Shown here: positions 24,581 through 62,911 of the stretch, in pieces | Position numbering within the stretch: the stretch's first letter is position 1 | Layout: each line of letters begins with the position of its first letter | DNA from: Lachnospiraceae bacterium | GTDB taxonomy: Bacteria; Bacillota; Clostridia; Lachnospirales; Lachnospiraceae | Reading direction: 5' to 3' | DNA: 64,000 nt | NCBI GenBank assembly: GCA_017427775.1 | Contig: JAFRSD010000023.1 | Coordinates: forward strand, 1-64,000 | Made by a program: the position numbers and the translations under genes | The notes under the pieces: generated by a model | Databases searched by the model: none | What the model was told of the DNA's origin: nothing | The model's input: only the letters and a program-made list of their open reading frames with translations

Positions 24581-24673
24581 CAAAAAAACACCGATACCGC
24601 ATGGACGAACGTGGCAACTAAATCTGTCTCAGACAGACTATTGCGCGACTCCGTCGCATGCATCGATGTTTAT
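24581..24673 (-). ncRNA. Structured leader RNA of the clamp gene (leader family member)
   Basis: Starts just after the promoter. Closing stem AACATCGAT (24670-24662) with ATCGGTGTT (24595-24587), followed by TTTTTT. Inside are GCGAC-GGA-GTCGC and a TCTGT/ACAGA hairpin. The TGCATGCG..GGA..CGC helix also occurs near 62.9 kb with compensatory changes. The closing stem plus U run could act as an attenuator. Confidence 0.5.
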
Positions 24674-24679
24674 GGCAAT

Positions 24680-24708
24680 ATCATAGCACTTCTATTATAG
24701 AAAAGCAA
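24680..24708 (-). promoter_or_regulatory. Promoter TTGCTT-17-TATGAT (extended -10) of the clamp gene
   Basis: The -35 is at 24708-24703 and the -10 at 24685-24680 with TGC in front. The spacer has the palindrome TTCTAT-A-ATAGAA. Confidence 0.6.
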
Positions 24709-24720
24709 GCAAAATCTGTA

Positions 24721-24861
24721 TTCCACCGCCGCTTGCGGCGGCACTTTTCGGAATCATGCCTTTTCTTCTCAAAACCTCGAATCGAGGGACGCGGTCGAAT
24801 CGTCTCGATTTCGACTAAAAGGACAAAAAAAATACCGCCACCCCGAAGGGCGGCGGTGGAA
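24721..24861. repeat. TTCCACCGCCGC inverted-repeat-bounded element, copy A
   Basis: 12-bp perfect terminal inverted repeats (24721-24732 and 24850-24861). Each end also forms its own hairpin; the right one (minus strand CCGCCGCCC..GGGTGGCGG then T8) is the terminator of the toxin-antitoxin unit. The centre has a TCGAATCGA-type inverted repeat. Copies B and C are at 34150 and 50365. Confidence 0.6.
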
Positions 24862-24872
24862 AAAACTAAAAA

Positions 24873-25172
24873 CTAAACATATGTGACCTGGTCTTCCGGA
24901 ACAAATTCGATTCGAAGAACCTTACCCATTCCTTTAGCCAGCTTCTGAAGGGTACGAACAGAAGGGTTCGATTTTCCCTTTTCAAGTTTGCTGATGTCAC
25001 CCTGCGCAATCCCGGAAAGCTCAGAAAGCTGTTTCTGGGTAAGTCCGGACTCGCATCTTGCGTCAATAAACGCCTGAATCAAGGCTCGCTCCGGCTGGAG
25101 CGCTTCGTACTCTTTCCGAAACTCCGGATCCTTCAGTTGTTCTTTGAGAAAGTCATCAAAATTAGTGCTCAT
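24873..25172 (-). CDS. higA: XRE-family antitoxin (HigA-like)
   Basis: 99 residues. Helix-turn-helix at about 42-95 (TQKQLSELSGIAQGDISKLEKG). ATGA overlap with the toxin gene upstream. As in HigBA units the toxin gene comes first. The antitoxin usually binds the toxin and represses its own promoter. Confidence 0.85.
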   Translation of the reverse strand: MSTNFDDFLKEQLKDPEFRKEYEALQPERALIQAFIDARCESGLTQKQLSELSGIAQGDISKLEKGKSNPSVRTLQKLAKGMGKVLRIEFVPEDQVTYV

Positions 25173-25528
25173 ATCGAACGCTCCTTTCGTTCTAAAAATT
25201 CTTTCCGATATTTTTTCGCAAGTTCAATCTCCCCCGGAGGGGTTTTCTGCGTCTTCTTCACAAACCCGTTCGTAAGAACAGCCTGCCTTCCGACAAAGAA
25301 GAAGTATAGAATGCGTGAAATATCGGAACCGGCCTGCGCACGAAGTTCAAAGATCCCGTCGCCTAGATGTTCGGAATAAGGAAGCCGAAGCCGGTTTCCG
25401 TTTTTCTTCAGCAAAGCAACCATCATAGACATCTTTGCCCTCATCTTGGTATCGAGCCCGTCCAGAAACTCCTTTGCAGGTTTACGCCCGTCCGGGCAGT
25501 CATAAAACAAAACCTCAAAATCGTCCAT
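25169..25528 (-). CDS. higB: RelE/HigB-type toxin (Gp49-like)
   Basis: 119 residues, with PYSEHLGDGIFELRAQAG, ILYFFFVGRQAVLTNGF and KKTQKTPPGEIELAKKY, the signature order of the phage Gp49-like/HigB family. Members are ribosome-dependent mRNases. Followed by the XRE antitoxin gene in coupled order; plasmid stabilisation is the likely role. Confidence 0.85.
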   Translation of the reverse strand: MDDFEVLFYDCPDGRKPAKEFLDGLDTKMRAKMSMMVALLKKNGNRLRLPYSEHLGDGIFELRAQAGSDISRILYFFFVGRQAVLTNGFVKKTQKTPPGEIELAKKYRKEFLERKERSI

Positions 25529-25543
25529 TCTTCCTCCAGTCTT

Positions 25544-25572
25544 AGAATATAGTATATATCCTATATTGTCAA
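25544..25572 (-). promoter_or_regulatory. Promoter/operator of the HigBA-like unit
   Basis: TTGACA at 25572-25567 and TATTCT at 25549-25544, spacer 17. The inverted repeat ATATAG...CTATAT fills the spacer, a likely binding site for the XRE antitoxin. Confidence 0.6.
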
Positions 25573-25597
25573 GGTCTTTTTTCTGTCAGAATAAAAA

Positions 25598-26170
25598 TCA
25601 CAGCTCGTCTTCATCTTCGTCATCATAGCTCTCCCAACCTTGGTCGGGATCGTACGGACTGATGCCGCATTCCTCATAGACTGCGTTAGGGTCGTGGGTA
25701 ATCTTAATCGGAAAAGGAAGTGCCGAGTTATCCTCTTCATAGCACGCAATCTCAATCCCGATTGTACGCCATTCGGGGAAATATCCGCAATTATTTTCCT
25801 TCATATACTCCACAACCTCTTCGCGCGTCTTCGTCAGGTCCGCATAAGCCGGGTACCATTTGTTTTCCGCAACAGTAAGTTCAACATGCTCCTGATACTC
25901 GGGGTGGTCTTTATGATACTGCTCAAGCCACTCTTTCCGTTTTTGAGCTGCCGGGAACACATGCTCCGGGTGCTTCGAAAGATACTCGCGGTTCCAAGCG
26001 GCTACCAGATCATAAATGTCATGGCCTCCGAAATTGCCATAGCCGTCATAGCAATGCTCCACGATATGCCCGCCACCGAATTCCTTCGGAACGAGAACAT
26101 AGACATCTCTCCAACGATTATCGACAATCTGTTTCTTTGTAATACAATCAAGCCAACTAAACTGACCCAT
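25598..26170 (-). CDS. Plasmid accessory protein of unknown function (MGQFSWLDC type)
   Basis: The ATG at 26170 starts MGQFSWLDCIT; the SD GGAAAGGAA is abutted by a hairpin. 190 residues, acidic, ending in a run of Asp/Glu. Proteins with this N-terminus are common on Firmicute plasmids and ICEs but have no assigned role that I know of. Internal VYVLVPKEFGGGHIVEHCYDG looks like a beta sheet. Soluble. Confidence 0.6.
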   Translation of the reverse strand: MGQFSWLDCITKKQIVDNRWRDVYVLVPKEFGGGHIVEHCYDGYGNFGGHDIYDLVAAWNREYLSKHPEHVFPAAQKRKEWLEQYHKDHPEYQEHVELTVAENKWYPAYADLTKTREEVVEYMKENNCGYFPEWRTIGIEIACYEEDNSALPFPIKITHDPNAVYEECGISPYDPDQGWESYDDEDEDEL

Positions 26171-26183
26171 ACTATTCCTTTCC

Positions 26184-26208
26184 GGCAAACCTCCCCGCGG
26201 AGGCTGCC
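26184..26208 (-). promoter_or_regulatory. SD-adjacent hairpin
   Basis: Minus strand GGCAGCCTCC..GGAGG..GCC stem directly abutting GGAAAGGAA of the gene starting at 26170. Confidence 0.45.
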
Positions 26209-26277
26209 ACTCATGTTTAATGTAATGACACCCTCCTTTGGGTTGGTAACCGGTCACGGGCCCGGTTTACGTCTTAA

Positions 26278-26916: not shown

Positions 26917-27329
26917 GAGCGCTCACCTCCTTCCGCGACCGTATGAAATTCCGTGGCGACAAGGTCGTCCGGCTTCAGCACGTAGTCGTAATTGTGCGGG
27001 TCATAATACCGCTGTTCCGCGATATACTCCGCCTCGGCAGCATTCTTCGCCAGCACCTTAAACGTCTTCTGACTCGTTTCCGTGATCTCGACCTCAAAGA
27101 TCGGCTTCTTCGGGGCAGCCGCGAACAACATGTGATACTGATCAAGGGATTTTCCTCTCACATCCCAGTTATCACTCTTGATATATGTGCACTCGTTGTA
27201 TCCCGCCCTGGAGAGTTCCTCCGTGGAGCTGTAAACCTCTTCCATCGCGATATCACAGAACCGCGGGGAATACAGATGGTCACCCTTCTCGAGGATTCCC
27301 TCGAGCTTGTCATTCAGTTTCTGAAACAT
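26913..27329 (-). CDS. DpnD/PcfM-like protein
   Basis: The ATG at 27329 (MFQKLNDKL) has GGAAGGAG in front. 138 residues. The C-terminal part (FEVEITETSQKTFKVLAKNAAEAEYIAEQRYYD) matches the pattern of the DpnD/PcfM-like C-terminal domain found on Firmicute plasmids and phages. Function of that domain is not established. Confidence 0.6.
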   Translation of the reverse strand: MFQKLNDKLEGILEKGDHLYSPRFCDIAMEEVYSSTEELSRAGYNECTYIKSDNWDVRGKSLDQYHMLFAAAPKKPIFEVEITETSQKTFKVLAKNAAEAEYIAEQRYYDPHNYDYVLKPDDLVATEFHTVAEGGERS

Positions 27330-30153: not shown

Positions 30154-30166
30154 TGCCTTTTTGGCA
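30154..30166 (-). promoter_or_regulatory. SD-adjacent hairpin
   Basis: Minus strand TGCC-AAAAA-GGCA stem immediately before GAAAGGAG of the 29888-30139 gene. Confidence 0.45.
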
Positions 30167-30296
30167 TAAAAAATAGCCCGAAGCAACGATTGTTACCTGC
30201 GGGCAGACACAAAAAAAAGGAAGGAAAGAATCCTCCCGAGCAGCTGCACATCAAAAAGATGTGCGGAAAATATAAAAACACAGAGCGCCATGCGCT

Positions 30297-30371
30297 GCAC
30301 ACCGAGGGGTGCTGAAACGGCCATTACTTGGCATTCCTATTCGGCATCCGCCGAACGCATCAATCTGTGAT
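30297..30371 (-). ncRNA. Structured leader RNA (leader family member)
   Basis: Starts at the promoter below. Helices in order: TTCGGC-GGAT-GCCGAA (30355-30340), GCCA-AGTAA-TGGC (30332-30320) and GCACC-CCTC-GGTGTGC (30312-30297). The order and loops match the leader near 40.05 kb. The leader continues to the first gene at 30139 with further hairpins (GCGC at 30283-30296; GCACATC near 30248-30263). Confidence 0.5.
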
Positions 30372-30377
30372 GCATTA

Positions 30378-30406
30378 ACAATAGCATATTTTCACAAAAA
30401 AAGCAA
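30378..30406 (-). promoter_or_regulatory. Promoter TTGCTT-17-TATTGT (extended -10)
   Basis: The -35 is at 30406-30401 and the -10 at 30383-30378, preceded by TGC. Drives the 30139-to-28995 small genes. Same class as the promoters near 24.7 and 40.1 kb. Confidence 0.5.
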
Positions 30407-30438
30407 TAAAAAAGAGTGCCTGCCGAAGCAAGCACTCT
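30407..30438 (-). terminator. Intrinsic terminator of the PAPS-reductase-like gene
   Basis: Minus strand AGAGTGC..GCACTCT stem with TTCG in the loop region, followed by TTTTTT. It sits 5 bp after the stop of the gene at 30443. Confidence 0.75.
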
Positions 30439-34315: not shown

Positions 34316-34702
34316 TTAGTTCCAACCGTCCGGAACAATCACAGTAACACTTCTACCGTCTGCAGTGACGATATCGTATACGGTTCCCTTTGGATCATCA
34401 ATCTCAAGGTCTTCCGCATCACCATTCTTGTCAAAGACAAGTTCGGTATTCTCGGGGACAACATCCCAGACGCTTTCCGTTCTGTGCGTGTTCACACAAG
34501 ACCATTTGCACGGAAAAGCGATAATGCTCCGACCTAAGATCAACATCGGAAGGGTTCCGTCAGGACACTCCGTCCAATTCCCGATGATCATCTGGGCTCC
34601 GACACTGTCTTTGTATTGGAAGAGCAAGATGCCACTCTCCCTATTTGTTAACTCAGTAAGACTCTTTGCTTCATTTTTAACTACCTGATTGAGCGTATTC
34701 AT
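34316..34702 (-). CDS. Hypothetical protein
   Basis: 128 residues, SD AAAGGAGG. Beta-rich C-terminus (GTVYDIVTADGRSVTVIVPDGW). No motif recognised. The possible dnaX frameshift product would overlap its start by about 25 bp, so it may be translationally coupled. Copy B element lies just downstream. Confidence 0.55.
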   Translation of the reverse strand: MNTLNQVVKNEAKSLTELTNRESGILLFQYKDSVGAQMIIGNWTECPDGTLPMLILGRSIIAFPCKWSCVNTHRTESVWDVVPENTELVFDKNGDAEDLEIDDPKGTVYDIVTADGRSVTVIVPDGWN

Positions 34703-34934
34703 AATGCTCCTCCTTTCGCTGCTTGTTGTTAGTTAGCGGTACCACACGGATATAGTCCGTGAAGCCAAGTACGTTGACGAATGTCCGGATAATATTCCGA
34801 ACCGCACAGGAATCGGAACCGACATAGGTCAGTCCGTCAACCGTGAGCGCTCTTGCGGTAGCGAGTGCCGCCGTAAGGACTTGGCTGTTCGCCGTATAAA
34901 TCAGATCCCGTACAGCACCGTCTACCCGAAAAAA
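34677..34934 (-). other. Possible programmed -1 frameshift site and extension of dnaX
   Basis: The heptamer T TTT TTC (34934-34928) lies in the zero frame two codons before the dnaX stop TAG (34924-34922). After a -1 shift the frame is open for 83 codons to TAA at 34679-34677. The extension reads like protein (VRDLIYTANSQVLTAALA, GLTYVGSDSCAVRNIIRTF) and has no ATG, GTG or TTG start of its own near its beginning. An indel in the assembly or a real mutation cannot be excluded. Confidence 0.5.
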
Positions 34935-36316
34935 TCGTCGAACGACATTCCGTACCCGTCGTCCTCGGACAATTCCGCCATGCTCCGTCCGTCTTCAAAG
35001 TCACCGTCGTCAGAAATCGGACGAACGGCAACCACAATTTCTTCTTCCTCCGAAGGCATTTCCCTCGCAGGTTCTCTCAACGTAGGCTCGGCAGGTCTCT
35101 TCGGTTCTTCAGGTCTTTCGAGCAATTTCTGAACGGTAGATTCCAAAGCGCTCACACGCTTCGTCAGCTGTCCAATCAGTTCCTCCAGCTTCTGTTTCAC
35201 CGAATCATCAATGACCGGCTTAACTTCCGCCACATCCGCATGCTCGGATATCTGCTTCACGTTACAGATAAGTCCGACCTTGCACATGGTCGCGTCATTC
35301 TGCCTTGCCACATCCGTCTTTGCCTTAAACGCCGCATCACACGCTGCCGCAAGGGACGCAAGCGACGCTTCCGTCAAAGGCTGAACGAGAGTAAGATACT
35401 GCTCGGTGTAATTCAACGCTGCCTTCTTGTTGTATTTCAGTTCCATGGCATCAGTCAAAAGTCTTGATGTTACCGTGAGCGCCCGAGCGAAATCATTTTC
35501 GCCGGCCTCTGCGATGGCATCCACGCCCCTGCCGATTCCGTCAATATCTGCTCTGGTAAGCGCCAACGCCAAATCCCTATGTCCGGTTTTGATCTCGCCA
35601 AACAGGATTCTCGTTACCGCTTCCTCACCGAAATCGTTCTCGTCCGCTAAAAGATTCAGGATCTTCTTTGCGTCCCGCATCGCGCCGTTGGCGTTATGCG
35701 CGATTTTCCGACAGACATCTTCGGTCGCTCCGAACTGATGCCCTTCTGCTATTCTTAAAAGCTCCGCTGTAATCACGGGTTCGGGAATAGCCGAAAAGTG
35801 AAACTTCTGGCACCTTGAAAGAATCGCCGCCGGGATCTTCTCTGCATTGGTCGTGCAGAAAATGATGGTGACATATTCCGGAGGCTCCTCCAAAAGTTTA
35901 AGCATTGCGCCCCAGGCTCCTGCGGAAAGGCTCTGGCATTCATCGACGATGAAAACCTTCTTTTTACCGAGGGGCTGGTACTCGCTTGCTTCGATGATGC
36001 TTTGCACAACATCATCCTTTCGTGTCTCTTTAGACGCGTTAATGTCAATCACGTCGGCGCACTCGCCAGCCATGATGGATTTACAGGATGCACACTCACA
36101 GCAAGGCTCACCGTCCTGCGGATTCTCGCAGTTCAGATACATGGCGAGAATATTTGCCGTCGTCGTCTTACCGCACCCAAAATGTCCTTCAAAAATGTAA
36201 GCAGCTCCGACGCTCCCCGCTGCCATCTGCCTCCGCAACGTCTCCGTAACCATGTCCTGACCTACCACATAGCGGAGCTTGCGCGGGCGTTCCTGAATGT
36301 TCAGATTGTACTTCAT
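34922..36316 (-). CDS. dnaX: DNA polymerase III gamma/tau-like clamp loader subunit
   Basis: 464 residues. Walker A GHFGCGKTTT at 44-53, a zinc module from Cys63 and C72-C78, Walker B VFIVDECQS near 118-126, and LLEEPPEYVTIIFCTTN plus a SRC sensor motif, the classic DnaX order. Residues about 370-430 are a Pro/Glu-rich linker; the end is short and acidic. SD AAAGGAG; hairpin 36340-36359 upstream. It loads a sliding clamp; the plasmid has its own clamp-like and delta-prime-like genes. Confidence 0.88.
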   Translation of the reverse strand: MKYNLNIQERPRKLRYVVGQDMVTETLRRQMAAGSVGAAYIFEGHFGCGKTTTANILAMYLNCENPQDGEPCCECASCKSIMAGECADVIDINASKETRKDDVVQSIIEASEYQPLGKKKVFIVDECQSLSAGAWGAMLKLLEEPPEYVTIIFCTTNAEKIPAAILSRCQKFHFSAIPEPVITAELLRIAEGHQFGATEDVCRKIAHNANGAMRDAKKILNLLADENDFGEEAVTRILFGEIKTGHRDLALALTRADIDGIGRGVDAIAEAGENDFARALTVTSRLLTDAMELKYNKKAALNYTEQYLTLVQPLTEASLASLAAACDAAFKAKTDVARQNDATMCKVGLICNVKQISEHADVAEVKPVIDDSVKQKLEELIGQLTKRVSALESTVQKLLERPEEPKRPAEPTLREPAREMPSEEEEIVVAVRPISDDGDFEDGRSMAELSEDDGYGMSFDDFFG

Positions 36317-36339
36317 TCATTTACTCCTTTCATCGAGAA

Positions 36340-36359
36340 GGGGTGACCGAAGCCACCCC
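36340..36359 (-). promoter_or_regulatory. Hairpin upstream of the dnaX SD
   Basis: Minus strand GGGGTGGC-TTCG-GTCACCCC stem about 10 bp before GAAAGGAG. Confidence 0.4.
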
Positions 36360-36367
36360 GCAAGTGT

Positions 36368-37084
36368 TTACGCAAGCGCCGCATAGAGCGCTGCGTTCAG
36401 TTCGTTCGCAGTCGGAAGTGTCCGTAGACACTTCGCTTCTGCTTCAGAGCAAACGCGGATGCGCTCCGCGGTTTTTTGTGTGCCGTCCGAAAGCTCGTCG
36501 GAATATAACAGCCGCAAGGCACGGAAGATTCGGAATACGTCTTCTTTGTAAAGCGCAAAGAAGGAATCCTTGTCTTTCTCCTTATACAGCCGCAACGCCT
36601 TCAAAACTTCATAGGCACGGTGATTGGAACGGAAAGCTTTCATCAGTTCGTCGAACACCTGATTCTCTCCGTCCGGAAGGTCATCGGAACCGGCGAGGTA
36701 CTGCCGGTATTCCGGGTACGGATTCCTCTTTGGAACCGTAACAGCTTCGCATCGACTTTCGATGGTCTGACTTAAGGGAAGGCGCGAGCAAAGAACGAAG
36801 CAACGCTTCTCGTTCTCAATCTCCGTAAGAAGCGCGCCCTGGCACATCGGAGACAGACGTTCCGCGTTCAGAACAAGGACCACCATCTGCGGAAGCGTCA
36901 CGGCATCATACGACAGATGCTCTAACTTCTCCCGGATCTCGTCCATGCCGATGCCGTAGGGAATATCCCAAATAAGATAATCCGCCGTGGCGTCATACCC
37001 TTCTCCGAATTCCGAACAAAGCCGTTCGTCCGCAACGCGGCACATCTCTTCGTTCAGTTCCCCATACAAAAGCAGGTTCTTCAT
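36368..37084 (-). CDS. Delta-prime-like clamp loader subunit
   Basis: 238 residues. No Walker A, but VVLVLNAERLSPMCQGALLTEIENEKRCFVLCSR and TIESRC follow the Walker B, sensor 1 and SRC order of delta-prime (HolB) type subunits. The C-terminal half is helical. Next to dnaX, HD and SSB genes, so probably a minimal clamp loader. Pairing with the delta subunit, absent here, is unknown. Confidence 0.65.
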   Translation of the reverse strand: MKNLLLYGELNEEMCRVADERLCSEFGEGYDATADYLIWDIPYGIGMDEIREKLEHLSYDAVTLPQMVVLVLNAERLSPMCQGALLTEIENEKRCFVLCSRLPLSQTIESRCEAVTVPKRNPYPEYRQYLAGSDDLPDGENQVFDELMKAFRSNHRAYEVLKALRLYKEKDKDSFFALYKEDVFRIFRALRLLYSDELSDGTQKTAERIRVCSEAEAKCLRTLPTANELNAALYAALA

Positions 37085-37098
37085 ATGCCCTCCTCCTT

Positions 37099-38133
37099 TC
37101 AGTCATTATCGTTTGTTCTCTTTACCGCGATGTAGCGCCCGAGAAGCTTCGAATACTGCTCCTGATCCGTTCTGGTATAGGACTGATGAGCGAAGCAGCC
37201 GTAATGGTCGGTCTCCACGCTGATTCGGTCCGCCAGTGCAACGAGGTTACCCTCGACCGTATAGGCTTTCACCGCACCGGAAGCGTTGATGGTTCCGCAG
37301 AGCATGCAATGCTCCAGGTTCTCCAGATCCTCTTCCGTCATGGACCTTTTCTTGCGCCTCATGATTCGATTGGCAATCGGAAGCACTTCCTCACGGAAAA
37401 TCACGGCCGTTGTGGACCGCATGCGGGAGTGATAGGTCTTCTCTCCGCGCGGGAACGCCGTAACGTCTCGGCACTTGTCAAGGTCACTTAAAATGCAGCC
37501 GGCAATCACCATATCCCGGTCGTACAAGGTCATGTACGGAGCGCCGATTGCCATGAGCGGATTCTTCTGCGCAACAAAGAACAGCTTTTCCGCAATATGA
37601 CGGAGCAAACCGCCGTTATATGCGTGATGCCATTCATGTCCGGCAGGAAGCGTCTGCAGTTCCTTAAGATGCTTCTCGAACATCTCATTTACAAGGTCTT
37701 TTAAGCCGCGGGCATCGTCCATCGAATCGATAAACGAGCGAACATAGTCCGTCAGCTCATCACGGTCATCCTTGGTAAGGAAGTACGCAAATTCCGTCCA
37801 GTCCTTCACCTCGGAATCATTGAGGCAGCGCCACTGTCCCGCGTTCACGAGAAGTCTCGCCTTTCCGTCGTGCATATCCACCGTGGCGGTCATTTCTACG
37901 ATATGACCGTTCATGTTGGCGGCATCCTCACGGCTTAATCTCTGGTCGCCCCAGAGTTTTCCGGGAAACTCACCCGTGCTGTCGCAGAGCGTTATGTCGA
38001 TATACGACGCTCCTCTTCCGCTTGCGGGAACATAGTTCACTTTTTTCGCAAGCCCCTTAACCCTGTAATTCTTTCCTACGTTATCGAACAGGCACGCCTG
38101 CCCGAGCTTGGTAAATTCATTACCGCTTACCAT
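37099..38133 (-). CDS. OB-fold plus HD-domain protein (YhaM-like exonuclease family)
   Basis: 344 residues. The N-terminal 110 residues resemble an OB fold (YIDITLCDSTGEFPGKLWG), and the rest an HD domain with HHAYNGGLLRHI and ILSDLDKCRD. Such OB-HD proteins include the YhaM/CBF1 3'-5' exoribonucleases. The second Asp of the HD pair is replaced (DLDK), so activity may be altered. Hairpin abuts the SD. Confidence 0.65.
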   Translation of the reverse strand: MVSGNEFTKLGQACLFDNVGKNYRVKGLAKKVNYVPASGRGASYIDITLCDSTGEFPGKLWGDQRLSREDAANMNGHIVEMTATVDMHDGKARLLVNAGQWRCLNDSEVKDWTEFAYFLTKDDRDELTDYVRSFIDSMDDARGLKDLVNEMFEKHLKELQTLPAGHEWHHAYNGGLLRHIAEKLFFVAQKNPLMAIGAPYMTLYDRDMVIAGCILSDLDKCRDVTAFPRGEKTYHSRMRSTTAVIFREEVLPIANRIMRRKKRSMTEEDLENLEHCMLCGTINASGAVKAYTVEGNLVALADRISVETDHYGCFAHQSYTRTDQEQYSKLLGRYIAVKRTNDND

Positions 38134-38149
38134 TTTTGTTCTCCTTTCT

Positions 38150-38170
38150 GCGGACGGAAAACCCGTCCGC
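38150..38170 (-). promoter_or_regulatory. SD-adjacent hairpin
   Basis: Minus strand GCGGACGGGTTTTCCGTCCGC, an 8-bp stem, directly before AGAAAGGAG of the OB-HD gene. Confidence 0.55.
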
Positions 38171-38216
38171 TTAAAAACTTAAACGAACGGGATCCTGTCC
38201 CGAAAGGTTTTGAAGT

Positions 38217-38642
38217 CTAGATGAACGGCAACTCTTCGTCAATTCCGTCCGGAATGTCCATGAAGCCTTCGTTTGCATTTGCGGGCTTCGCCGGTGCGTT
38301 GTTTGCGCTTCCGGAAGAAGCATTCTTGCTCTCCGCAAACTCGACTTCCTCCACCATAATTCTCGTGCCGTAAACCTTCTGGCCGTCCTTATTGGTGTAA
38401 TTGTCGTTCTCTACTCTTCCGCAAAGGACAATTTTCGTCCCCTGCTTCAGATACTTCTCAACAAATTCGGCCTGCTTTCCGAAGCAGGTGCAGTTGAAAA
38501 AGTCGGCTTCCGGTTCTCCCTCTCTGCGGAATCTCCGGTCAACCGCGATACTAAAGCGGGCCACTGCCGTAGCGTTGGCTCCCTGTGAATAACGAACCTC
38601 GGGATCTCTTGTGAGACGTCCCATAAACATGCACTTGTTCAT
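38217..38642 (-). CDS. ssb: Single-stranded DNA-binding protein
   Basis: 141 residues. OB fold with MNKCMFMGRLTRDPEVRYSQG and the FNCTCFGKQAEFVEKYLKQG strand, then a flexible tail and an acidic tip ending DEELPFI, as in bacterial SSB. The SD itself lies in the loop of a small hairpin (ACTGA-AAGGAG-TCAGT). Protects ssDNA in plasmid replication and transfer and recruits partners through the tip. Confidence 0.92.
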   Translation of the reverse strand: MNKCMFMGRLTRDPEVRYSQGANATAVARFSIAVDRRFRREGEPEADFFNCTCFGKQAEFVEKYLKQGTKIVLCGRVENDNYTNKDGQKVYGTRIMVEEVEFAESKNASSGSANNAPAKPANANEGFMDIPDGIDEELPFI

Positions 38643-38668
38643 AACTGACTCCTTTCAGTGTAAAAAAA

Positions 38669-39064
38669 TTACGCCACCGTAGCAGCGCTTGATTTAAGAC
38701 ACATCTGATTGCGTGTCGCATAGTACAGAAAAACTGCCTGCTCATATTCCGTAAGGTCGGCAGGCTGGTAGAAACACTGGCTTACAACCGCTCTCGCTTC
38801 CTCGATCGTGCATTCCGCACCGGCCCCAGTGAATCGGATTCCGCGTATTGTAAAACCGGCTGAGGCATCGACAGGCTTCCGGCCTGTCATGCGCTCAATT
38901 CGTTTTGCGAGGCACTCGGTATCCCTGATCAGAGCGGATACCTTGTCCTGCATCACGATTTCTCCGTCTGAGATTGCTTCGGCCACTCGACAGAGCAACA
39001 TCATGTGTTCAACATACGCATCAACGAGCTGCACGTATGCTAACGGACGTTTCTCGTTGTTCAT
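38669..39064 (-). CDS. Hypothetical protein
   Basis: The ATG at 39064 overlaps the upstream stop as ATGA. 131 residues, mostly helical (AYVEHMMLLCRVAEAISDGEI), ending near the ssb leader. No motif recognised. Part of the ssb unit; function unknown. Confidence 0.55.
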   Translation of the reverse strand: MNNEKRPLAYVQLVDAYVEHMMLLCRVAEAISDGEIVMQDKVSALIRDTECLAKRIERMTGRKPVDASAGFTIRGIRFTGAGAECTIEEARAVVSQCFYQPADLTEYEQAVFLYYATRNQMCLKSSAATVA

Positions 39065-39918
39065 GCCGCCCACCCCGCGAAAATCAGCTGAACCTCACCG
39101 GAGTTCGGAACGACATACTTCTTGAAACGCGCCTCAAAGGCATCACCTACAGTAAGGGCGCGAAGATAATTTATCGTGTCCTCGTCATATGTCTGGTTGA
39201 ACCAGTAACGAAGCGCGATGCTTACATTACGAACCTTAACCTTCGCTCCATATCCTGTGACGGTTCGCTTGTCCTTTCCAAGACAAGCCTGGAACGCAGA
39301 CAGCAGCTCTACCCTTCCCGTAAAGGAATCCGGCAGGGAACTTGCCGCGGGGTAATACCCGTTCTTTCCGTTGTTCCCGTCCGTAACCGGTCCTTTCGGA
39401 ACCGTTGCAGGTTTCTGTACGATTGGCGGCGTCTCCGCGTTCTTCTCTTCCTCTCCTTTGTCCCAGGGGAAACTTTCCTCTACGGGAACCGCTTCTGTCG
39501 AAGGGCTCGTTACCTTTTTTGGTAACTCGACCTGCTTTCCGCAGAAGTTCGGAATGGAATAACCGAAGATGGTGCAGAATGCGCCGACCAGACCTTCCCG
39601 ATAACCGTTGGCCGGAAACTTTGCCTGTCGCAAAACATTTCCGCCGTCATCAAAGATGGTCAACAGTCCGGAGCCTGTCTCCGGATCAAAATCATACAGC
39701 CAGCGCGTCCAACCGAACACGTTCGTAAGAACACGGTTAACGGGTGTGGCTGCATTCACGGATGAGTCCTCGCTCAACAGATTGCGGACACGATCCAATG
39801 CTTCGGAAGGCTCGATGCCGTTAACCGTAACTCTCTGAGTAACAACGTTTTTGGCATTTCCCTTCTTCTCTTCTGCCGGAACAACTTCGCTGGTTCCGAC
39901 AAGCTTCTTCGTTGCCAT
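39061..39918 (-). CDS. Hypothetical protein
   Basis: The ATG at 39918 (MATKKLVGTSE) follows GAAGGGAG with a hairpin. 285 residues. Two globular parts joined by a Pro/Glu-rich linker (about 140-190); no motif recognised. First gene after the structured leader near 40.05 kb. Confidence 0.6.
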   Translation of the reverse strand: MATKKLVGTSEVVPAEEKKGNAKNVVTQRVTVNGIEPSEALDRVRNLLSEDSSVNAATPVNRVLTNVFGWTRWLYDFDPETGSGLLTIFDDGGNVLRQAKFPANGYREGLVGAFCTIFGYSIPNFCGKQVELPKKVTSPSTEAVPVEESFPWDKGEEEKNAETPPIVQKPATVPKGPVTDGNNGKNGYYPAASSLPDSFTGRVELLSAFQACLGKDKRTVTGYGAKVKVRNVSIALRYWFNQTYDEDTINYLRALTVGDAFEARFKKYVVPNSGEVQLIFAGWAA

Positions 39919-39946: not shown

Positions 39947-40028
39947 GAAAAAAAATAGCAGGGAAGACATTCTTCTCTGCTTCTACCTGTCGCTTACGCA
40001 ACTGTTTCCATTGTGATCATCCGACCAC

Positions 40029-40100
40029 GACACACCGAGGTGTCTCAGTAAGCCTTGCTGGCTGTAACTGTACGGCAACTGCCGTATGCATCAAATGATT
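40029..40100 (-). ncRNA. Structured leader RNA (leader family member)
   Basis: Helices in order: TACGGC-AGTT-GCCGTA (40086-40071), AGCC-AGCAA-GGCT inside CAGT/ACTG (40070-40046), and GACAC-CTCGGT-GTGTC (40044-40029). Same order, and a matching AGCAA loop, as in the leaders at 30.3 and 62.9 kb. Confidence 0.55.
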
Positions 40101-40106
40101 ACTCTT

Positions 40107-40135
40107 ACATTAGCACAAGTTTTGGTAAAATGCAA
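40107..40135 (-). promoter_or_regulatory. Promoter TTGCAT-17-TAATGT (extended -10)
   Basis: The -35 is at 40135-40130 and the -10 at 40112-40107 with TGC in front. Drives the 39918-to-ssb unit. Confidence 0.5.
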
Positions 40136-40172
40136 GAGATTTGTGAGAAGAAGGCTATTCTGTTGTCGTGTT

Positions 40173-45066: not shown

Positions 45067-46341
45067 CTAATTCACCAAAGTCAGATGTGGAAGGCCACCG
45101 TTTCGGAGCAGGTCGTCGATTCCTTTTCCGATATTGATGTCCCAATCCGCAATCAGAACGCGGAAGCCTCGCTGCTTCAAAAGTTCGACGAAACCGTCCT
45201 GTGCGTGAAGCACCATTCGGTTGTTTTCCTTGTCTGCGTCGTAGGCAACAACGATGGATAATGCGCCGGAGTTCCACATGTAATCAAGAATGGAGTTCCC
45301 GTCTTTGTCCTCCTGGGTGAGAAGTTTGTAACTGCTCACGCCCGGAATGTCGATGAACGTGTTCCGGAGCATTTCCGAACCGATGATGGATTTCTTCTCG
45401 CCCTCCGTACACCAGATGCGAGACTTGTCAAAGCCTTCGCCCCTGCGGGAACGCGGAAGATAGATTCCGGCGCGGCAGCCGATTTTACAGCCGTCCTTGC
45501 CGAAAGAGGTGAAGTTCACATACTTGCCGGATCGGAAGTTGTTTTCCGGATCGGCCTCATATGCTTCCTTTGCGATTGCGAAACCGTCTTTGTCATGATA
45601 CTGACTGTGGTTACGCAATCGCAGGGCGTAAATCTGACCTTTTGCGTTAAAGAGCGGAAAGATGATTCCGCCGTAGCCGCAATAAGTCCAATCGCCCTTA
45701 CTTGTCTGGCGAAAGCCCGGGATATGCTCTAAACTCGGAACGCGCTGCAGAAGCTGCTGGCACGTAATCTTACGTCGGTCATTGATGCTGTGGTAGGCAG
45801 CGCCCAACTGATATCTGACATAGTCAGACTCGGGTACGCTTACGATTTTCCAATAGTCTATCAATCCGTCCGTAAAACCTTCCTTGTGAAGATAGGTCCG
45901 GTCTTCCGGTTCCAACCGAAGAAGCGAAAGGAATTCACGGTAAACGTGATCCAGTGTTGCATCATCGGCCGGAGGATTCTCAGGGACGATTTCCTCGTCG
46001 GCGTAAGTCTTGAACCGCCTCGGTTTCACCTCGCCCTTATTATCCGCCCAGTTCTTTTGACGCGCCTTTTTAAGCGCCGCCGGTTCGAAGCGGATACCTA
46101 CGCTGACACCGTCTCCGGATTCCGCGTAGGATTTGTTCGCTCGGTATTCCTCGCCGTTGACACCGATCACAATGTCTCCGACCGAAACCGTACCGCCGGT
46201 ACGATTGCATACCGAATAAAAGTCATCCCCGATGTAGCCTTCAGGGATTAAGTCCGCCGGAATGGGAAGCCGATAACAGAAATCGGGTTTTCCGCAAATC
46301 CTGCATCTTTCTCCGTGCCGGAGCTGAATGGCGAGCCCCAT
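45067..46341 (-). CDS. Toprim primase-like protein
   Basis: 424 residues. Middle: GGIIFPLFNAKGQIYALRLR; then WCTEGEKKSIIGSEM, the toprim Glu region, and IVVAYDADKENNR, the toprim DxD, and IADWDINIGKGIDDLL at the end. This order fits DnaG-like/DUF3854-type primase proteins of mobile elements. The N-terminal CxxC pair (CRICGKPDFCY) is probably a zinc site. SD AAAGGAGG with hairpin. Confidence 0.75.
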   Translation of the reverse strand: MGLAIQLRHGERCRICGKPDFCYRLPIPADLIPEGYIGDDFYSVCNRTGGTVSVGDIVIGVNGEEYRANKSYAESGDGVSVGIRFEPAALKKARQKNWADNKGEVKPRRFKTYADEEIVPENPPADDATLDHVYREFLSLLRLEPEDRTYLHKEGFTDGLIDYWKIVSVPESDYVRYQLGAAYHSINDRRKITCQQLLQRVPSLEHIPGFRQTSKGDWTYCGYGGIIFPLFNAKGQIYALRLRNHSQYHDKDGFAIAKEAYEADPENNFRSGKYVNFTSFGKDGCKIGCRAGIYLPRSRRGEGFDKSRIWCTEGEKKSIIGSEMLRNTFIDIPGVSSYKLLTQEDKDGNSILDYMWNSGALSIVVAYDADKENNRMVLHAQDGFVELLKQRGFRVLIADWDINIGKGIDDLLRNGGLPHLTLVN

Positions 46342-46380: not shown

Positions 46381-46433
46381 TCCCGTTGGTCAACTTGCGG
46401 CCACTGCGTGTAGCGGCATTTAAGCCAAAACAC

Positions 46434-46511
46434 AAAAAAGCGGATACCGATGGTAACTGAAACCAGTTAATCGCGTATCCGCACAGCTCCGCTGTAAGAA
46501 TCAAATCTTAT
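46434..46511 (-). ncRNA. Structured leader RNA of the primase gene (probable attenuator)
   Basis: ACAGC-GGA-GCTGT (46495-46483) is followed directly by GCGGATAC..GTATCCGC (46482-46440) with an AACTG/CAGTT inner hairpin, then TTTTTT. The GGA loop is shared with the 24.6 and 62.9 kb leaders. The stem plus U run would be a terminator in the leader. Confidence 0.5.
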
Positions 46512-46517
46512 GTAAAC

Positions 46518-46546
46518 ATCTTACAGCGAATCAGATTGATTGTCAA
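46518..46546 (-). promoter_or_regulatory. Promoter TTGACA-17-TAAGAT of the primase gene
   Basis: The -35 at 46546-46541 and -10 at 46523-46518 lie in the last codons of the 46521-46733 gene. CGCTGTAAGA and TCTTACAGCG form an inverted repeat across the -10 and leader start. Confidence 0.65.
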
Positions 46547-46733
46547 GGGTAAATTGTTCCGGTGCCTCGGAACGGGTTACGGCGGCTTTATAAATCTCCG
46601 CCAGCTCACCGTTCCGTCCGCCGTTGCCGACGGAACCGCAGATAAGCTGTTGCAGATATAGACCGGCAGCTATATCACGCCGTTCCTTTTTAGCAGCGCA
46701 CCCGTCCTTAATATTCCTTATCAAACGAAACAA
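46521..46733 (-). CDS. Small hypothetical protein with TTG start
   Basis: 70 residues from a TTG at 46733, 8 bp after GGAGG. The frame is in phase with the upstream gene and separated from it by that gene's TGA. Basic N-terminus, then YLQQLICGSVGNGGRNGELAE. A continuation of the upstream gene by readthrough is possible but the SD argues for a separate gene. Confidence 0.5.
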   Translation of the reverse strand: MFRLIRNIKDGCAAKKERRDIAAGLYLQQLICGSVGNGGRNGELAEIYKAAVTRSEAPEQFTLDNQSDSL

Positions 46734-59264: not shown

Positions 59265-59311
59265 CATAAAAAATGACTGCCCCACCCAAAAGGTGAGACA
59301 GTCATTTTCTT
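59265..59311. terminator. Bidirectional terminator between RM and ardC
   Basis: AAAATGACTG..CAGTCATTTT stem with CCACC/GGTG, T run on both strands. Ends the plus operon and the ardC unit. Confidence 0.75.
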
Positions 59312-60333
59312 TATACGGCAATCTCATGTACCGGAAGAAGAGAAAGCCCGGTATGAGAACCGATCGTGCCATACTTTAAAACACTGATGCGGATGCCGTA
59401 ATCTGCATCTCCGAAAACATCAACATACCTTCCGTACAGCCAGTCAGAGGCGCTTTCCGCCTTGTTGAGTGCATCCGTGAAGTCCTTCAGCTCACAACTC
59501 TTAAGCCACGAAAGAAGATACGCCGTATGGTTCGTCTCTTCTTTCTGCTCCAGCTCAATCCCGAGCTGTGCGCATAAAAGAACCGCACCAACCTCGGCAA
59601 CGAGTTCCTCAGCCGCATATTTCGCGGATCCGAAACCGCCGCTCAGGTCACGGTCAAGGCGCTTCTTTGCGCCTGTTGCATGGACAAGCTCATGGAAAGC
59701 CGTCCCGTAAAAACCAGAAGAAGACTTGAAGAACATCTTTTCCGGGAGATAAATCCGGTCCTCGGACGGACGGTAAAAGGACTCTCCGCCACCGTAGACG
59801 ATTTCAACTGGCGAAACCGCGAGCATCTGCTCCCCGATCTCGTCTGGTGTAAAGGCGTTGACAGGAAGAACCTCGAGAGGAATGTCCGTCAGACTGACGT
59901 TGAAAACCGTGTAACAGGAAATTCCGGTGAAGACAGTTTCCTTCTTGCCGTCCTCCCTTTCCACATCCTTAAAGTTGTAATGAAAGACCGGAACGCCGTG
60001 CCCTTTCGCGTCTGTAATGAAGTGGCGGTCAGCCTTCTTCATGGCGTCAAACGTGATCCACCGGTTATCCGTGTAATGCTTGGCCTGCGCTACAATCGCA
60101 AGCAGGAAAGCATTGCAGCCACGGTAGGCCTTGCCCGTCGCAAAGCTTTTCTGTCTCCCGGAAGCCGCCAGCCAGGGCATCTTCCAAAGAGGTGTGCCGG
60201 ACGAAAGACCTTCAAGAACCATCTTCCGAAGGTTTTCCTGTGCCTCCTTCATTCGTTCTTTGGCCGTTGTTCCGGCTCCGCTGCCGTTCTTTTTGAAATT
60301 ATGATACTTACCCATAAACAAAATTGCCGCCAT
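59311..60333 (-). CDS. ardC: ArdC-type antirestriction protein
   Basis: 340 residues. N-terminal ssDNA-binding-like part (RKMVLEGLSSGTPLWKMPWLA, GKAYRGCNAFLL) then a zincin domain with HELVHATG (HExxH) and AEELVAEVGA. ArdC proteins protect incoming conjugative DNA from restriction. It sits next to, and convergent with, the plasmid's own RM system. Translation appears to be controlled by a bistable hairpin around its start. Confidence 0.85.
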   Translation of the reverse strand: MAAILFMGKYHNFKKNGSGAGTTAKERMKEAQENLRKMVLEGLSSGTPLWKMPWLAASGRQKSFATGKAYRGCNAFLLAIVAQAKHYTDNRWITFDAMKKADRHFITDAKGHGVPVFHYNFKDVEREDGKKETVFTGISCYTVFNVSLTDIPLEVLPVNAFTPDEIGEQMLAVSPVEIVYGGGESFYRPSEDRIYLPEKMFFKSSSGFYGTAFHELVHATGAKKRLDRDLSGGFGSAKYAAEELVAEVGAVLLCAQLGIELEQKEETNHTAYLLSWLKSCELKDFTDALNKAESASDWLYGRYVDVFGDADYGIRISVLKYGTIGSHTGLSLLPVHEIAV

Positions 60334-60376
60334 AAAAGGCGGCTCTCCTTTCTGTAAAGATTGCCGCCTTTCGGCG
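60326..60376 (-). promoter_or_regulatory. Alternative hairpins around the ardC SD and start codon
   Basis: Three exclusive pairings: CGCC-GAAA-GGCG (60376-60365); AAAGGCGGC with GCCGCCTTT (60371-60363 and 60343-60335), which puts the SD in its loop; and GCCGCC-TTTTAT-GGCGGC (60343-60326), which puts the ATG in the loop. A translational switch is suggested. Confidence 0.55.
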
Positions 60377-60390
60377 AGAGTAATGAAAAA

Positions 60391-61599
60391 CTAAGGAACG
60401 ATCTCTAAAAGGTCAAACAAAGACATCTGGACCGCACCGTCATCCTTTGGTACGGACGGTTTCACGGTATTCTTTTCCGCAAGAAGACGAAGGTATTCGT
60501 CATTCCCGAGCACCTTGACCGCCTTTTTGCGTTCAAATTCGTCCAGCTCTTTCGTTAATACAAGCTTCCGGTATCTTCGGGCTTTTGCTTCCGCATTCTT
60601 TGCAAGCCGCTTCTGTTTGTTCTGCTTCGCAAGCTTTTTCTCGTCAATGACATGAGAAATCCTGATTCCCGCTGCAATATCCGCTAAATCCTGCTCCAGA
60701 TCACGAACGTCCTTTTTGACAACCCGGAAGTTTGTAAACTTCCAATGCAGGTCGATTTCACCCTTTTCCGCTTGGTAGGCTGTCAGATTCCCGATCAGAC
60801 GCCCTAAGGTGTTGGATCTGATCGAGAGCATCCTCGGTTCCTTGTTGACCTTTAAAAAGCGCTCAGCGAGTTTGAGATTCACGGGTTTTCCGAAGTATTG
60901 GTATCCTTTATGGACCGTGTGAAACCGTTCGCCCTCAAAGATGGTTCCGTCTTTCCCGTAATTCCGCCCTTCGAGTTCAATATCATAATAGATATTTCCC
61001 TTGACCTTTCCGAGGTCTTCCTTCAGCACATCGCAGTAAGCACATGTCCCGAGTGTGATACAGGTATCGGGATTGTATCTCATTTCCCAGCATTCCTTCC
61101 ATTCATCGTATTTTAACTGATGCGGACAGGAACGTTCATGCGTGCGAAGGAATTCCAAACGAAGCTGTTCCTTGCGGTCTTCCAGCTCTTTTTCGGCGCG
61201 TTCCACACTGTTCTCCTCGTTGTATGGCTGAAGACTCAGGTGAGCGCTGCAGAAACGGTTGTTCCGATACAAAGAAAAAGGCTCCGGACGTCTTTTGCAG
61301 CTGCTGCAGACGGGATAGCTGTACGGGCAGTGAAAAACAGGATTATCATTCTCGTGACACCATGCAACACCGTACCAATGCATCGAAAATACATTTTTCC
61401 CGAGGATTTGAAGTCCGCATGGTGTTTCATAGACGCGCTCCCACCTTGCTTTCGGCGTAAACTCAAAACCGCCGGACAGATTTTCAAGCACGTCAGTACG
61501 GCTGAAGCCCCCTCCCGCGACACGAACATTATCCGGATGGTTCGTTACGGTATACCCTTCGGCAAGCAGTTTCTGCGTCAAAAGATTATATTCCGACAT
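60391..61599 (-). CDS. Cys-rich hypothetical protein with C-terminal clamp-binding-like motif
   Basis: 402 residues. N-terminal half has Cys clusters (CPYSYPVCSSCKRRP, and CITLGTCAYC) likely to bind zinc. A basic helical stretch about 320-360 follows. The end QMSLFDLLEI matches the beta-clamp-binding consensus QLxLF. Start overlaps the upstream stop as TGATG. Function unknown; clamp tethering is inferred. Confidence 0.6.
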   Translation of the reverse strand: MSEYNLLTQKLLAEGYTVTNHPDNVRVAGGGFSRTDVLENLSGGFEFTPKARWERVYETPCGLQILGKNVFSMHWYGVAWCHENDNPVFHCPYSYPVCSSCKRRPEPFSLYRNNRFCSAHLSLQPYNEENSVERAEKELEDRKEQLRLEFLRTHERSCPHQLKYDEWKECWEMRYNPDTCITLGTCAYCDVLKEDLGKVKGNIYYDIELEGRNYGKDGTIFEGERFHTVHKGYQYFGKPVNLKLAERFLKVNKEPRMLSIRSNTLGRLIGNLTAYQAEKGEIDLHWKFTNFRVVKKDVRDLEQDLADIAAGIRISHVIDEKKLAKQNKQKRLAKNAEAKARRYRKLVLTKELDEFERKKAVKVLGNDEYLRLLAEKNTVKPSVPKDDGAVQMSLFDLLEIVP

Positions 61600-61871
61600 C
61601 AGATCACCCCCTTACAGGGTTCCATACCGAACGCCTCCAGCATACGCGCCCGGAGTGCGTCAACGGTCATTCCGTACTCTTCCTCGGCAACACAGGATTC
61701 GCACATACAAAATCCGATCTGAAGAGCGTTCGCAATCCGCTGGTCCCAGCTGTTCAACTGCCGTCCGCAATATACGCACGTCTCGTCAAGCCAACGGACA
61801 TGGTCTTTCGGAGGTCCCGCCATCGCTTCCCAGCGCCGGACATCCGCCTCCGTTATCTTCTCTTTTTTCAT
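61599..61871 (-). CDS. Small zinc-ribbon-like protein
   Basis: 90 residues, with CVYCGRQL and CMCESC as a probable zinc site. TGATG overlap with the next gene. Its SD is 30 bp upstream of the ATG, with a GCCGTCC/GGGCGGC hairpin between them; looping out would bring SD and start close together. Confidence 0.6.
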   Translation of the reverse strand: MKKEKITEADVRRWEAMAGPPKDHVRWLDETCVYCGRQLNSWDQRIANALQIGFCMCESCVAEEEYGMTVDALRARMLEAFGMEPCKGVI

Positions 61872-61882
61872 GATAAAACACA

Positions 61883-61900
61883 GCCGCCCTCACGGACGGC
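61883..61900 (-). promoter_or_regulatory. Hairpin between SD and start codon
   Basis: Minus strand GCCGTCC-GTGA-GGGCGGC lies between GAAAGGAGGT and the ATG at 61871. A second hairpin (CGCCC-AAA-GGGCG, 61921-61933) lies before the SD. Confidence 0.45.
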
Positions 61901-61937
61901 ACCTCCTTTCAATGAGTCACCGCCCTTTGGGCGTAAA

Positions 61938-61988
61938 TGAAAAAATCCGGAGCAGGCTCGTCCCAAGGGAGTCGCCCGCTGCCGGATT
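61938..61988 (-). terminator. Intrinsic terminator
   Basis: Minus strand AATCCGG..CCGGATT stem with a branched inner part, then TTTTTT, about 20 bp after the 62008-62223 gene. Confidence 0.65.
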
Positions 61989-62007
61989 GGAAAAGTGAGC
62001 TTTTTGC

Positions 62008-62223
62008 TCACATGGTGGAAGTAAGAGCGTTGATCATCTCGCTGCCGCTTATGCAAAGCGCGGTATGGTAATAACCGGCCTCCTTCGGATCGGTATTGAG
62101 GTAATTTAATCGCTCATTCGTTTCCTCATAAGTGCCATAGAAGATGCCGACCTTTACGGGCCGCTGCGACTTCTCGGGCTGATACGGGAAACGCTTTAAA
62201 AGAAACGAGAAATACTCCCTCAT
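62008..62223 (-). CDS. Small hypothetical protein
   Basis: 71 residues, ATGA overlap with the upstream membrane protein gene. Contains YGTYEETNERLNYLNTDPKEAGYYHT. No motif recognised. Confidence 0.5.
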   Translation of the reverse strand: MREYFSFLLKRFPYQPEKSQRPVKVGIFYGTYEETNERLNYLNTDPKEAGYYHTALCISGSEMINALTSTM

Positions 62224-62708
62224 ATTCTCGCGCCTCCTTTCTGATGTGCTTCATAGTGATAGCACAGGAAAAATACGATAACAGCGGGGATATTCCACCT
62301 AAGGTAATACTTCCACGCCTTTCTCGGTGTTAAGTGACGTTTCCAGGCTTTCCGCATCCGTCGGGTTGTATAGTGCTGATAGCACAATAACCACTCCGGA
62401 ATCTTGACAAGGATATAAGCACCGATTGCCAAGGAAAGAAGCTGGCAGATCAGAACCGCCAAGGTAGCATACCAGTAAGCATTCATCGAATGCTCGGTTG
62501 GCGCGTACACATAACCGTCATGCACGATGGCCATGACGCTCATAAGCACCTTCATTCCCTGAAGAAACAGAAGCATCAATCCGAAAACGGCAGTACACAA
62601 ATAAGTGGCTGCCACGGGAACAGGCCAGTGAAATTCCTGAACTTCGCTAACTTCCGCGTCATTAACTTCCGGAGCATTCTCCGGGTACAACATATAAATC
62701 TTTGCCAT
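62220..62708 (-). CDS. Small membrane protein with three segments
   Basis: The ATG at 62708 (MAKIYMLYPEN) follows AAAGGAG. 162 residues; segments at about 35-60, 80-105 and 140-155, with a basic loop (RRMRKAWKRHLTPRKAW) before the last. Function unknown; possibly an entry exclusion protein, which would be a guess. Confidence 0.55.
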   Translation of the reverse strand: MAKIYMLYPENAPEVNDAEVSEVQEFHWPVPVAATYLCTAVFGLMLLFLQGMKVLMSVMAIVHDGYVYAPTEHSMNAYWYATLAVLICQLLSLAIGAYILVKIPEWLLCYQHYTTRRMRKAWKRHLTPRKAWKYYLRWNIPAVIVFFLCYHYEAHQKGGARI

Positions 62709-62723
62709 AACGGCTCCTTTCTT

Positions 62724-62735
62724 CCGCTTCAGCGG
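62724..62735 (-). promoter_or_regulatory. SD-adjacent hairpin
   Basis: Minus strand CCGCTGAAGCGG (4-5 bp stem) directly before AAGAAAGGAG of the membrane protein gene. Confidence 0.4.
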
Positions 62736-62820
62736 AGTAAAAATGGGTAAAAAAACAGCGCATGCCATGAGCTGCGCTTCGTAACTGTATGAAAAAGGCA
62801 AATGCCTGAAAAAAGGAAAT

Positions 62821-62911
62821 AAAAAAAGACGCTACCGCGTCGCAAACAAGTTGCTTTTCGGACCTTGCTGGTCATATCTTTGCGGTTCCACCGCATGCAA
62901 CATCTTAATAT
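62821..62911 (-). ncRNA. Structured leader RNA, three-way junction plus terminator (leader family member)
   Basis: P1 GTTGC (62901-62897) with GCAAC (62854-62850); P2 GCGGT-GGA-ACCGC (62894-62882); P3 GACC-AGCAA-GGTC (62873-62861); then GACGC-GGTA-GCGTC followed by TTTTTTT (62841-62821). P2 covaries with the 24.6 kb leader, and the P3 loop equals that at 40.05 kb. Confidence 0.6.

Follow-up and report, generated by a model that had tools for sequence, protein, structure and literature searches.

What do the short folded leaders do that stand directly behind several promoters on one strand of a Lachnospiraceae plasmid? The stretch of DNA analysed here (the window) comprises 64,000 nucleotides (nt), positions 1 to 64,000 of contig JAFRSD010000023.1 (C19) of assembly GCA_017427775.1. 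A preliminary description of it claimed at least five promoter-proximal leaders on the minus strand, and we found the five that it listed where it had placed them. They belong to a covarying family of leader RNAs with further copies on the same contig, and we consider below whether they could carry RNA polymerase past terminators that are predicted ahead of the first gene. C19 is 111,564 bases long and its ends overlap by 141 bases; it is therefore probably a circular plasmid of 111,423 bases.

Five leaders share a promoter arrangement and two covarying hairpins

All five leaders in the window follow a −35/−10 pair with a spacer of 17 (Table 1), promoters that we term sigma-A-type by consensus only. 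TGn precedes the −10 box in four of the five, the copy at 46.5 kb having CTG. The first hairpin, P1, has 6 bp and a loop GGA, GGAT or AGTT; it is paired in five of five rows and starts 20–22 nt past the −10 box in nine units of C19. The second, P2, in most copies has a short lower stem and, beyond an internal loop, an upper stem of 3–4 bp, whose loop reads, for example, AGCAA, AGTAA or GGTAT; the P2 hairpins of the 24.6 and 46.5 kb copies are longer and unlike those of the other copies. The motif GATGCA, one mismatch being allowed, is followed by P1 at exactly four places in the window, and each of them is one of the five leaders.

We judged covariation against shuffled and slid alignments. 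In a MAFFT alignment of the five leaders (A2), P1 and the upper P2 stem are paired in 90.0% of 50 cells, and two-sided changes occur in 8 of 10 pairs. The covariation of this alignment is 0.730 as against 0.364 in shuffles, none of 500 shuffles being as high, and it is at most 0.140 in all six slid versions. We confirmed the compensatory exchange of AC/GT for GT/AC that had been claimed for the 24.6 and 62.9 kb copies, and the claimed loops are all present (AGCAA in the 40.05 and 62.9 kb copies, AGTAA in the 30.3 kb copy). In an alignment of ten copies (A6), one or more rows of which are out of place in P1, 86.9% of the cells are paired, covariation is 0.718 versus 0.240 in shuffles, and 24 cells have two-sided changes versus 6.9. 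The lower P2 stem, which begins 0–2 nt past P1, was assessed by permuting partners among eleven units: 5 of 5000 permutations were as good, rising to 70 of 5000 without u46 and, with u78 left out as well and at a wider offset, to 136 of 5000. The family, its covariation and its spacing to the promoter, together with the terminators predicted below, can be read in the sequence itself.

Further copies on the plasmid and in the genus

We searched the plasmid's own genome (2,626,342 bases, 49 contigs) with a covariance model built from the five window leaders (R1), scoring 150 of 228 first-look candidates. The 24.6 kb copy, one of those used to build R1, scores 59.9 bits. Three new copies emerged (u84, u89 and u100), all on the minus strand of C19, the best next match (E 2.2) lying on another contig. 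A ninth unit, u78, was found by its anatomy of promoter, spacing, P1 and P2. It scores 24.3 bits with a second model, R2, which was built on the ten copies of A6 and so scores those ten highly by construction; since other R2 matches in 41 relatives reach 28.0 bits, u78 rests on anatomy and not on score. R1 applied to 26 R2 loci from the 41 relatives gave nothing convincing.

Among 22 genomes of the genus, two have a match at E ≤0.1: the own genome and G012, in which three copies lie inside 4 kb of one locus (L035). The genus search listed only one of these three, a sign of its limited sensitivity. Behind the G012 copies stand a ParE-like gene (under the Pfam cut-off), a gene for a 103-aa protein of unknown family followed by DprA-family and DUF4160/DUF2442 genes, and a short open reading frame (ORF); iPGM and UPF0236 genes flank the whole stretch at one end, an RNase R-like gene and tmRNA at the other end. 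Positions 11683–11778 of L035 have almost the same sequence as 9602–9697, with base changes that break P1 in the former, like a decaying duplicate. Just upstream of a G012 leader, L035 9424–9500 holds two similar short repeats, TTAACGCTCCCTGCTT...GGGGAATCACC.

The preliminary description had named a lack of covarying homologues past its five copies as the outcome that would speak against it. This did not occur, there being at least three more by score and one by anatomy on the plasmid, and one clear and two weaker copies in G012. Its picture of a plasmid-borne leader RNA, conserved and regulatory, is supported by the covariance model, by copies outside the training set and by the covariation counts. 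We found no wide spread over Clostridia plasmids, in which it had suggested a search. The family-wide searches used strict filters on a sample of 397 genomes; given these filters, the sampling and the two of three G012 copies missed by the genus search, absence is weak evidence.

Several candidates were rejected. In the 397 family genomes, R1 gave three others at 27.0 bits, with P1/P2 broken, a 16-nt insert in P1, or coding sequence (one locus, L017, carries a GATGCA-P1-like string and reads as coding sequence). R2 gave three others at 31.8–33.9 bits, two without P1 or with P1 broken; the third, before an EF-Tu-like gene, pairs in P1 and P2 and lacks the −10 motif and the spacing. BLASTN with u30 returned 33 plasmid records (best E 0.3 among the matches listed) and with u40 5 phage records (best E 4); the matches were short and attributable to chance. 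A consensus pattern hit 55 loci in viral contigs, four rows from three loci having 5–6 of 6 P1 pairs and none a promoter and P2. In Rfam, nothing in the window exceeded the gathering score; none of five window matches at E ≤5 and none of four matches at E ≤1 in seven unit loci falls on a leader, SNORA11 (E 0.51) lying just behind a G012 leader. In titles and abstracts of the open-access literature, which leaves many journals outside its coverage, we found no report of such leaders on Lachnospiraceae plasmids.

Terminators are predicted between leader and gene

In all nine plasmid units the order is promoter, P1 and P2, at least one predicted intrinsic terminator, ribosome-binding site (RBS) and gene. 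A hairpin with a U-tract was called between the −10 box and the start codon in each of the nine, as compared with 67 of 270 shuffles of those stretches, and these predictions fit the premature termination at which the preliminary description had hinted. A slightly different caller, working from automatic promoters, placed a terminator before all five leader genes visible to it, before 2 of 11 other C19 genes and, in a 60-kb sample of contig C1, before 3 of 16 genes. A Fisher test of 9/9 against 5/27 gave p 2e-5, its two sides coming from two different callers. At least two terminators were called in u30, u62, u84, u89 and u100; these tandem counts are weakened because calls arise in shuffles, most of them in long stretches. 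Intergenic terminators are also predicted within u62 and u40, and we set these aside as main evidence.

A second, unrelated leader RNA has the same order

We then considered relatives of the plasmid's VirB4. VirB4-like proteins occur in 5 of the 397 family genomes, own included. A contig search with the single VirB4 protein found no locus; one with a VirB4 alignment found nine, of which at least four are the same contigs as in the family genomes and one comes from a record titled plasmid; four of the nine are labelled Lachnospiraceae, and the genera of the others belong to this family. The genomes and loci with these VirB4 relatives (31–36% identity) contain no convincing copy of the first-type leader. 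A leader search in six groups of related loci gave instead a second RNA of ~95 nt, unrelated to the first family. A model from five of its copies (R3) finds it in one of the 397 genomes, G060, which has 11 copies, all on the minus strand: five on each of two contigs with VirB4-like genes and one elsewhere. R3 found no copy in the own genome, and three stretches with 5 of the 11 copies had no Rfam match at E ≤0.5.

In all 11 copies the closed RNA comes first and a separate terminator next. The terminator was called after 11 of 11, a count made without a shuffle control, and a start codon follows it in nine, none lying within 220 nt in the other two. RNAalifold on a MAFFT alignment of all 11 copies gave 5 pairs only, two subtypes being mixed, and permutation was used instead: none of 5000 permutations matched the closing stem (7 of 5000 within subtypes), which reaches −10 kcal/mol or better in 10 of 11 units. 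DUF5688 and ArdC genes are positioned behind the copy at 60.3 kb, and we infer that they belong to its operon.

Proposed antitermination and its rivals

Two unrelated RNAs, each in many copies, show the same order of promoter, folded RNA, terminator and gene, so that antitermination fits best. On this analysis, we lend about even credence to the reading that the units are promoter-proximal antitermination RNAs, HK022 put- or conAn2-like and common to several operons, those for replication and anti-restriction among them. Eight, probably nine, transcription units of the plasmid begin with this RNA, so that their genes would answer to one signal. RNA polymerase would depart from the sigma-A-type promoter and soon make P1 and P2; the folded leader, alone or with a factor, would mark or bind the elongating polymerase, which could then pass the intrinsic terminators ahead of the first gene and perhaps also those inside the operon. 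Polymerase without the folded leader would stop at these terminators. The leader may be used early after entry of the plasmid into a recipient. Antitermination, processivity and time of use are thus what we infer from the sequence.

A number of observations weigh against antitermination. Shuffled stretches also yield terminators (67 of 270), mostly the long ones, and a chromosome sample shows one to three similar terminators between co-directional genes, which makes terminators between genes weak evidence. Across the six groups of loci, a terminator follows the promoter in only 7 of 28 promoter-like genes. Neither R1 nor R2 has a match in HK022 27000–40000, a stretch assumed to hold both put sites, and positions 1–50000 of 65774 of pLS20 show no kinship, the best scores being 10.4 bits for R1 (E 1.9) and 13 bits for R2 (E 0.7). 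Two further points look more like an attenuator than like a separate put element: the P2 stem of u46 doubles as a terminator, and a closing stem, P0, in which the transcript's 5′ end pairs with the bases ahead of the first U-tract, is possible in u24, u30, u62 and u78 and less so in u89, u100 and G012b.

The last two points bring in the main rival, conditional attenuation. Here the closed form (P0 with its U-tract, or a local hairpin) would terminate ~80–100 nt past the −10 box; whatever binds P1/P2, be it a plasmid protein, a small RNA or a ligand, would shift the fold, the polymerase itself being unchanged. P0 complementarity sums to −87.5 kcal/mol as compared with −59.7 for permuted partners, with 4 of 3000 permutations as good, in nine of twelve units (u40, G012a and G012c lack an early U-tract and were left out) and with 3′ segments chosen once the folds had been seen. 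The own partner is better than all others in u24, u30, u62 and u78, not in u89, u100 and G012b, and u46 and u84 have a poor P0. The first called U-tract lies ~77–102 nt past the −10 box in nine of the twelve units, as an attenuator would have it, and in u84 the 3′ arm of P1 can pair with the terminator instead. However, one early switch leaves the later terminators of u30, u62, u84, u89 and u100 unexplained, and in u40 the sole called terminator is a self-contained hairpin that starts ~65 nt past P2, distant from the leader. The search for a binding protein or ligand covered LoaP/NusG only. We hold attenuation possible, if on the unlikely side.

Nine of 12 units combine a promoter and a structured RNA with an early U-tract, which would also suit leaders that are mainly trans-acting small RNAs of ~100 nt with their own terminator, the genes behind being fed by leaky read-through. 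A gene with an RBS stands behind each plasmid copy (9 of 9), and u40 lacks the early U-tract, which makes this improbable. The position of the hairpins near the 5′ end of the mRNA agrees with a role as 5′ stabilisers or as insulators against upstream read-through, and PMC8708921 reports that EGeRS1-B of pLS20 blocks read-through from upstream promoters. A stabiliser would presumably need neither conserved loops nor a terminator following them, and we give these two roles only a slim chance. LoaP systems occur in Bacillota and act through leader hairpins. For LoaP-type (NusG paralogue) antitermination, the whole genome has one NusG-like protein only, on contig C1 and at 79.7 bits versus a LoaP cut-off of 125, and such a mechanism is very improbable here. 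Ribosome-mediated attenuation through leader peptides is scarcely credible, as short ORFs with a Shine–Dalgarno-like sequence occur in u30, u78, u84 and u89, with sequences unalike by eye, and not in u24, u40, u46, u62 and u100.

Genes behind the leaders

The genes of the units are listed in Table 1. The preliminary description had assigned replication genes (clamp, primase and ssb) to these leaders. SSB is indeed among them; the supposed clamp is a clamp-loader-like AAA protein, and the gene at 46.5 kb encodes a DUF3854 protein, at most a putative primase. The first genes of u24, u30, u40, u62 and u78 have no family match. Behind u84, u89 and u100 stand genes for a DUF5688 protein, an SNF2-type helicase of 1775 aa that includes a methylase-like domain, and a UvrD-type helicase, respectively. 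Control by u24 need not extend to the TraG/VirB4-type ATPase, because a promoter-like sequence stands ahead of 22436, between it and the first gene. Overlapping ORFs are abundant on both strands of window 25600–31100, where few proteins were scanned and none matched Pfam, and gene calls behind u30 are uncertain.

Table 1. Leaders, predicted terminators and genes on the plasmid, and leader copies elsewhere
Feature	Position	Strand	Details
u24 promoter and leader	24578..24710	−	TTGCTT-17-TATGAT; P1 24644-24658, P2, closing stem P0, U-tract ~24578-24585
First gene behind u24	22602..24536	−	644 aa, no family
TraG/VirB4-type ATPase	16829-18910	−	downstream of first gene of u24
u30 promoter and leader	30270..30408	−	TTGCTT-17-TATTGT; P1 TTCGGC-GGAT-GCCGAA, P2 loop AGTAA, P0, U-tract ~30278
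Two u30 terminators (predicted)	30165..30240	−	U-tracts 30218, 30175; between leader and start codon at 30139
u40 promoter and leader	40043..40137	−	TTGCAT-17-TAATGT; P1 TACGGC-AGTT-GCCGTA, P2 loop AGCAA
u40 terminator (predicted)	39949..39980	−	GCAGAGAAGAATGTCTTCCCTGC, U-tract 39957; precedes gene at 39918
Genes behind u40	34316..39918	−	first encodes 285-aa protein, no family
SSB behind u40	38217-38642	−	
TraI_2 helicase-like protein behind u40	37099-38133	−	
Clamp-loader-like AAA protein behind u40	34922-36316	−	
Terminator-like hairpin and tail within u40 genes	38161		28 nt ahead of next start codon
u46 promoter and leader	46432..46548	−	TTGACA-17-TAAGAT (hexamers as printed off by one base); P1 TACAGC-GGA-GCTGTG; long P2 is the terminator itself, U-tract 46439
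Gene behind u46	45067..46341	−	DUF3854 protein
u62 promoter and leader	62817..62948	−	TTGACT-17-GATACT; P1 TGCGGT-GGA-ACCGCA, P2 loop AGCAA, first terminator U-tract ~62825
u62 second terminator (predicted)	62749..62777	−	U-tract 62757; ahead of gene at 62708
Genes behind u62	59311..62708	−	last encodes ArdC-type anti-restriction protein, 59311-60333
Strong terminator (predicted) among u62 genes	61943		−26.6 kcal/mol
u78, ninth unit	C19 78718-78816		found by anatomy
u84	C19 84134-84206	−	R1 E 0.01
u89	C19 89782-89851	−	R1 E 1.1e-5
u100	C19 99997-100070	−	R1 E 0.1
G012 copy	L035 9624		39.8 bits; clear copy
G012 copy	L035 11705		28.1 bits; near-identical to 9624 copy, P1 broken
G012 copy	L035 7936		R1 14.2 bits, E 0.47; promoter, P1, P2 present
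Second-RNA copies	L029, L031, L034, L145-L155	−	G060 contigs C154, C17, C99

Two other features of the window stand apart from the units. At 4700–4860 on the minus strand, a promoter, a long closed hairpin and a U-tract precede the gene 3494–4708, a like order at a site that neither R1 nor R2 matches. On the plus strand, opposite to the leaders, 54522–59156 encodes a protein of 1544 aa that combines a ResIII helicase with an Eco57I methylase domain, likely a restriction or defence protein.

Comparison with known systems

Membership by sequence in the put, conAn, EGeRS1 or LoaP systems is not supported, and the comparison is one of architecture. The putRNA of HK022 is ~70 nt long, has two stem-loops and works without a dedicated protein, putL lying just behind its promoter (PMC9378689). 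Its processive antitermination acts through the β′ zinc-binding domain. The leaders resemble it in having two adjacent stem-loops within ~70 nt, near a promoter and with terminators ahead of genes (PMC9378689), the pair and its place just behind the promoter being supported here by P1/P2 covariation and promoter spacing, and the immediate succession of the two hairpins by the lower P2 stem. They differ in that the put stem-loops are long whereas P1 has 6 bp, and in that put has two copies per element as against 8–9 here. With conAn of the pLS20 family (the ConAn1 protein and conAn2 RNA) they share an RNA at the operon start, terminators and a place on Gram-positive conjugative plasmids (PMC8955417), although the leaders here are copied in many units. 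The canT RNA of Tn916 was tested as a 452-bp fragment and can be set against them by description only. Antitermination RNAs without a dedicated protein amount to few cases in these sources: put, EAR and probably canT (PMC9378689, PMC8955417, PMC11658703, PMC8708921).

A possible generalisation, which we put forward tentatively, is that Lachnospiraceae conjugative plasmids each own a private antiterminator RNA, copied before many operons, that lets only transcripts from their own promoters pass terminators, different lineages using unrelated RNAs in the same architecture and partly for the same genes (ArdC, DUF5688). Each element would then have its own dialect of polymerase marking, and the two unrelated multi-copy candidates would show the principle arising repeatedly and serving whole operon sets. 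A parallel at the level of gene sets is EGeRS1/EGeRS2, conserved multi-copy sequences before several operons of one conjugative plasmid, including ardC (PMC8708921), and ArdC is a typical establishment gene according to the same source. EGeRS1, however, spans ~400–750 bp without a regular sigma-A promoter, whereas the leader here is ~100 nt with a promoter in nine of nine units, and EGeRS2 is a repressor-operator promoter, in contrast to a leader RNA behind a sigma-A-type promoter. If the generalisation is true, it would offer a testable mechanism for transient EGeRS1-type expression of establishment genes without the promoter repressor known from p576, a question left by PMC8708921.

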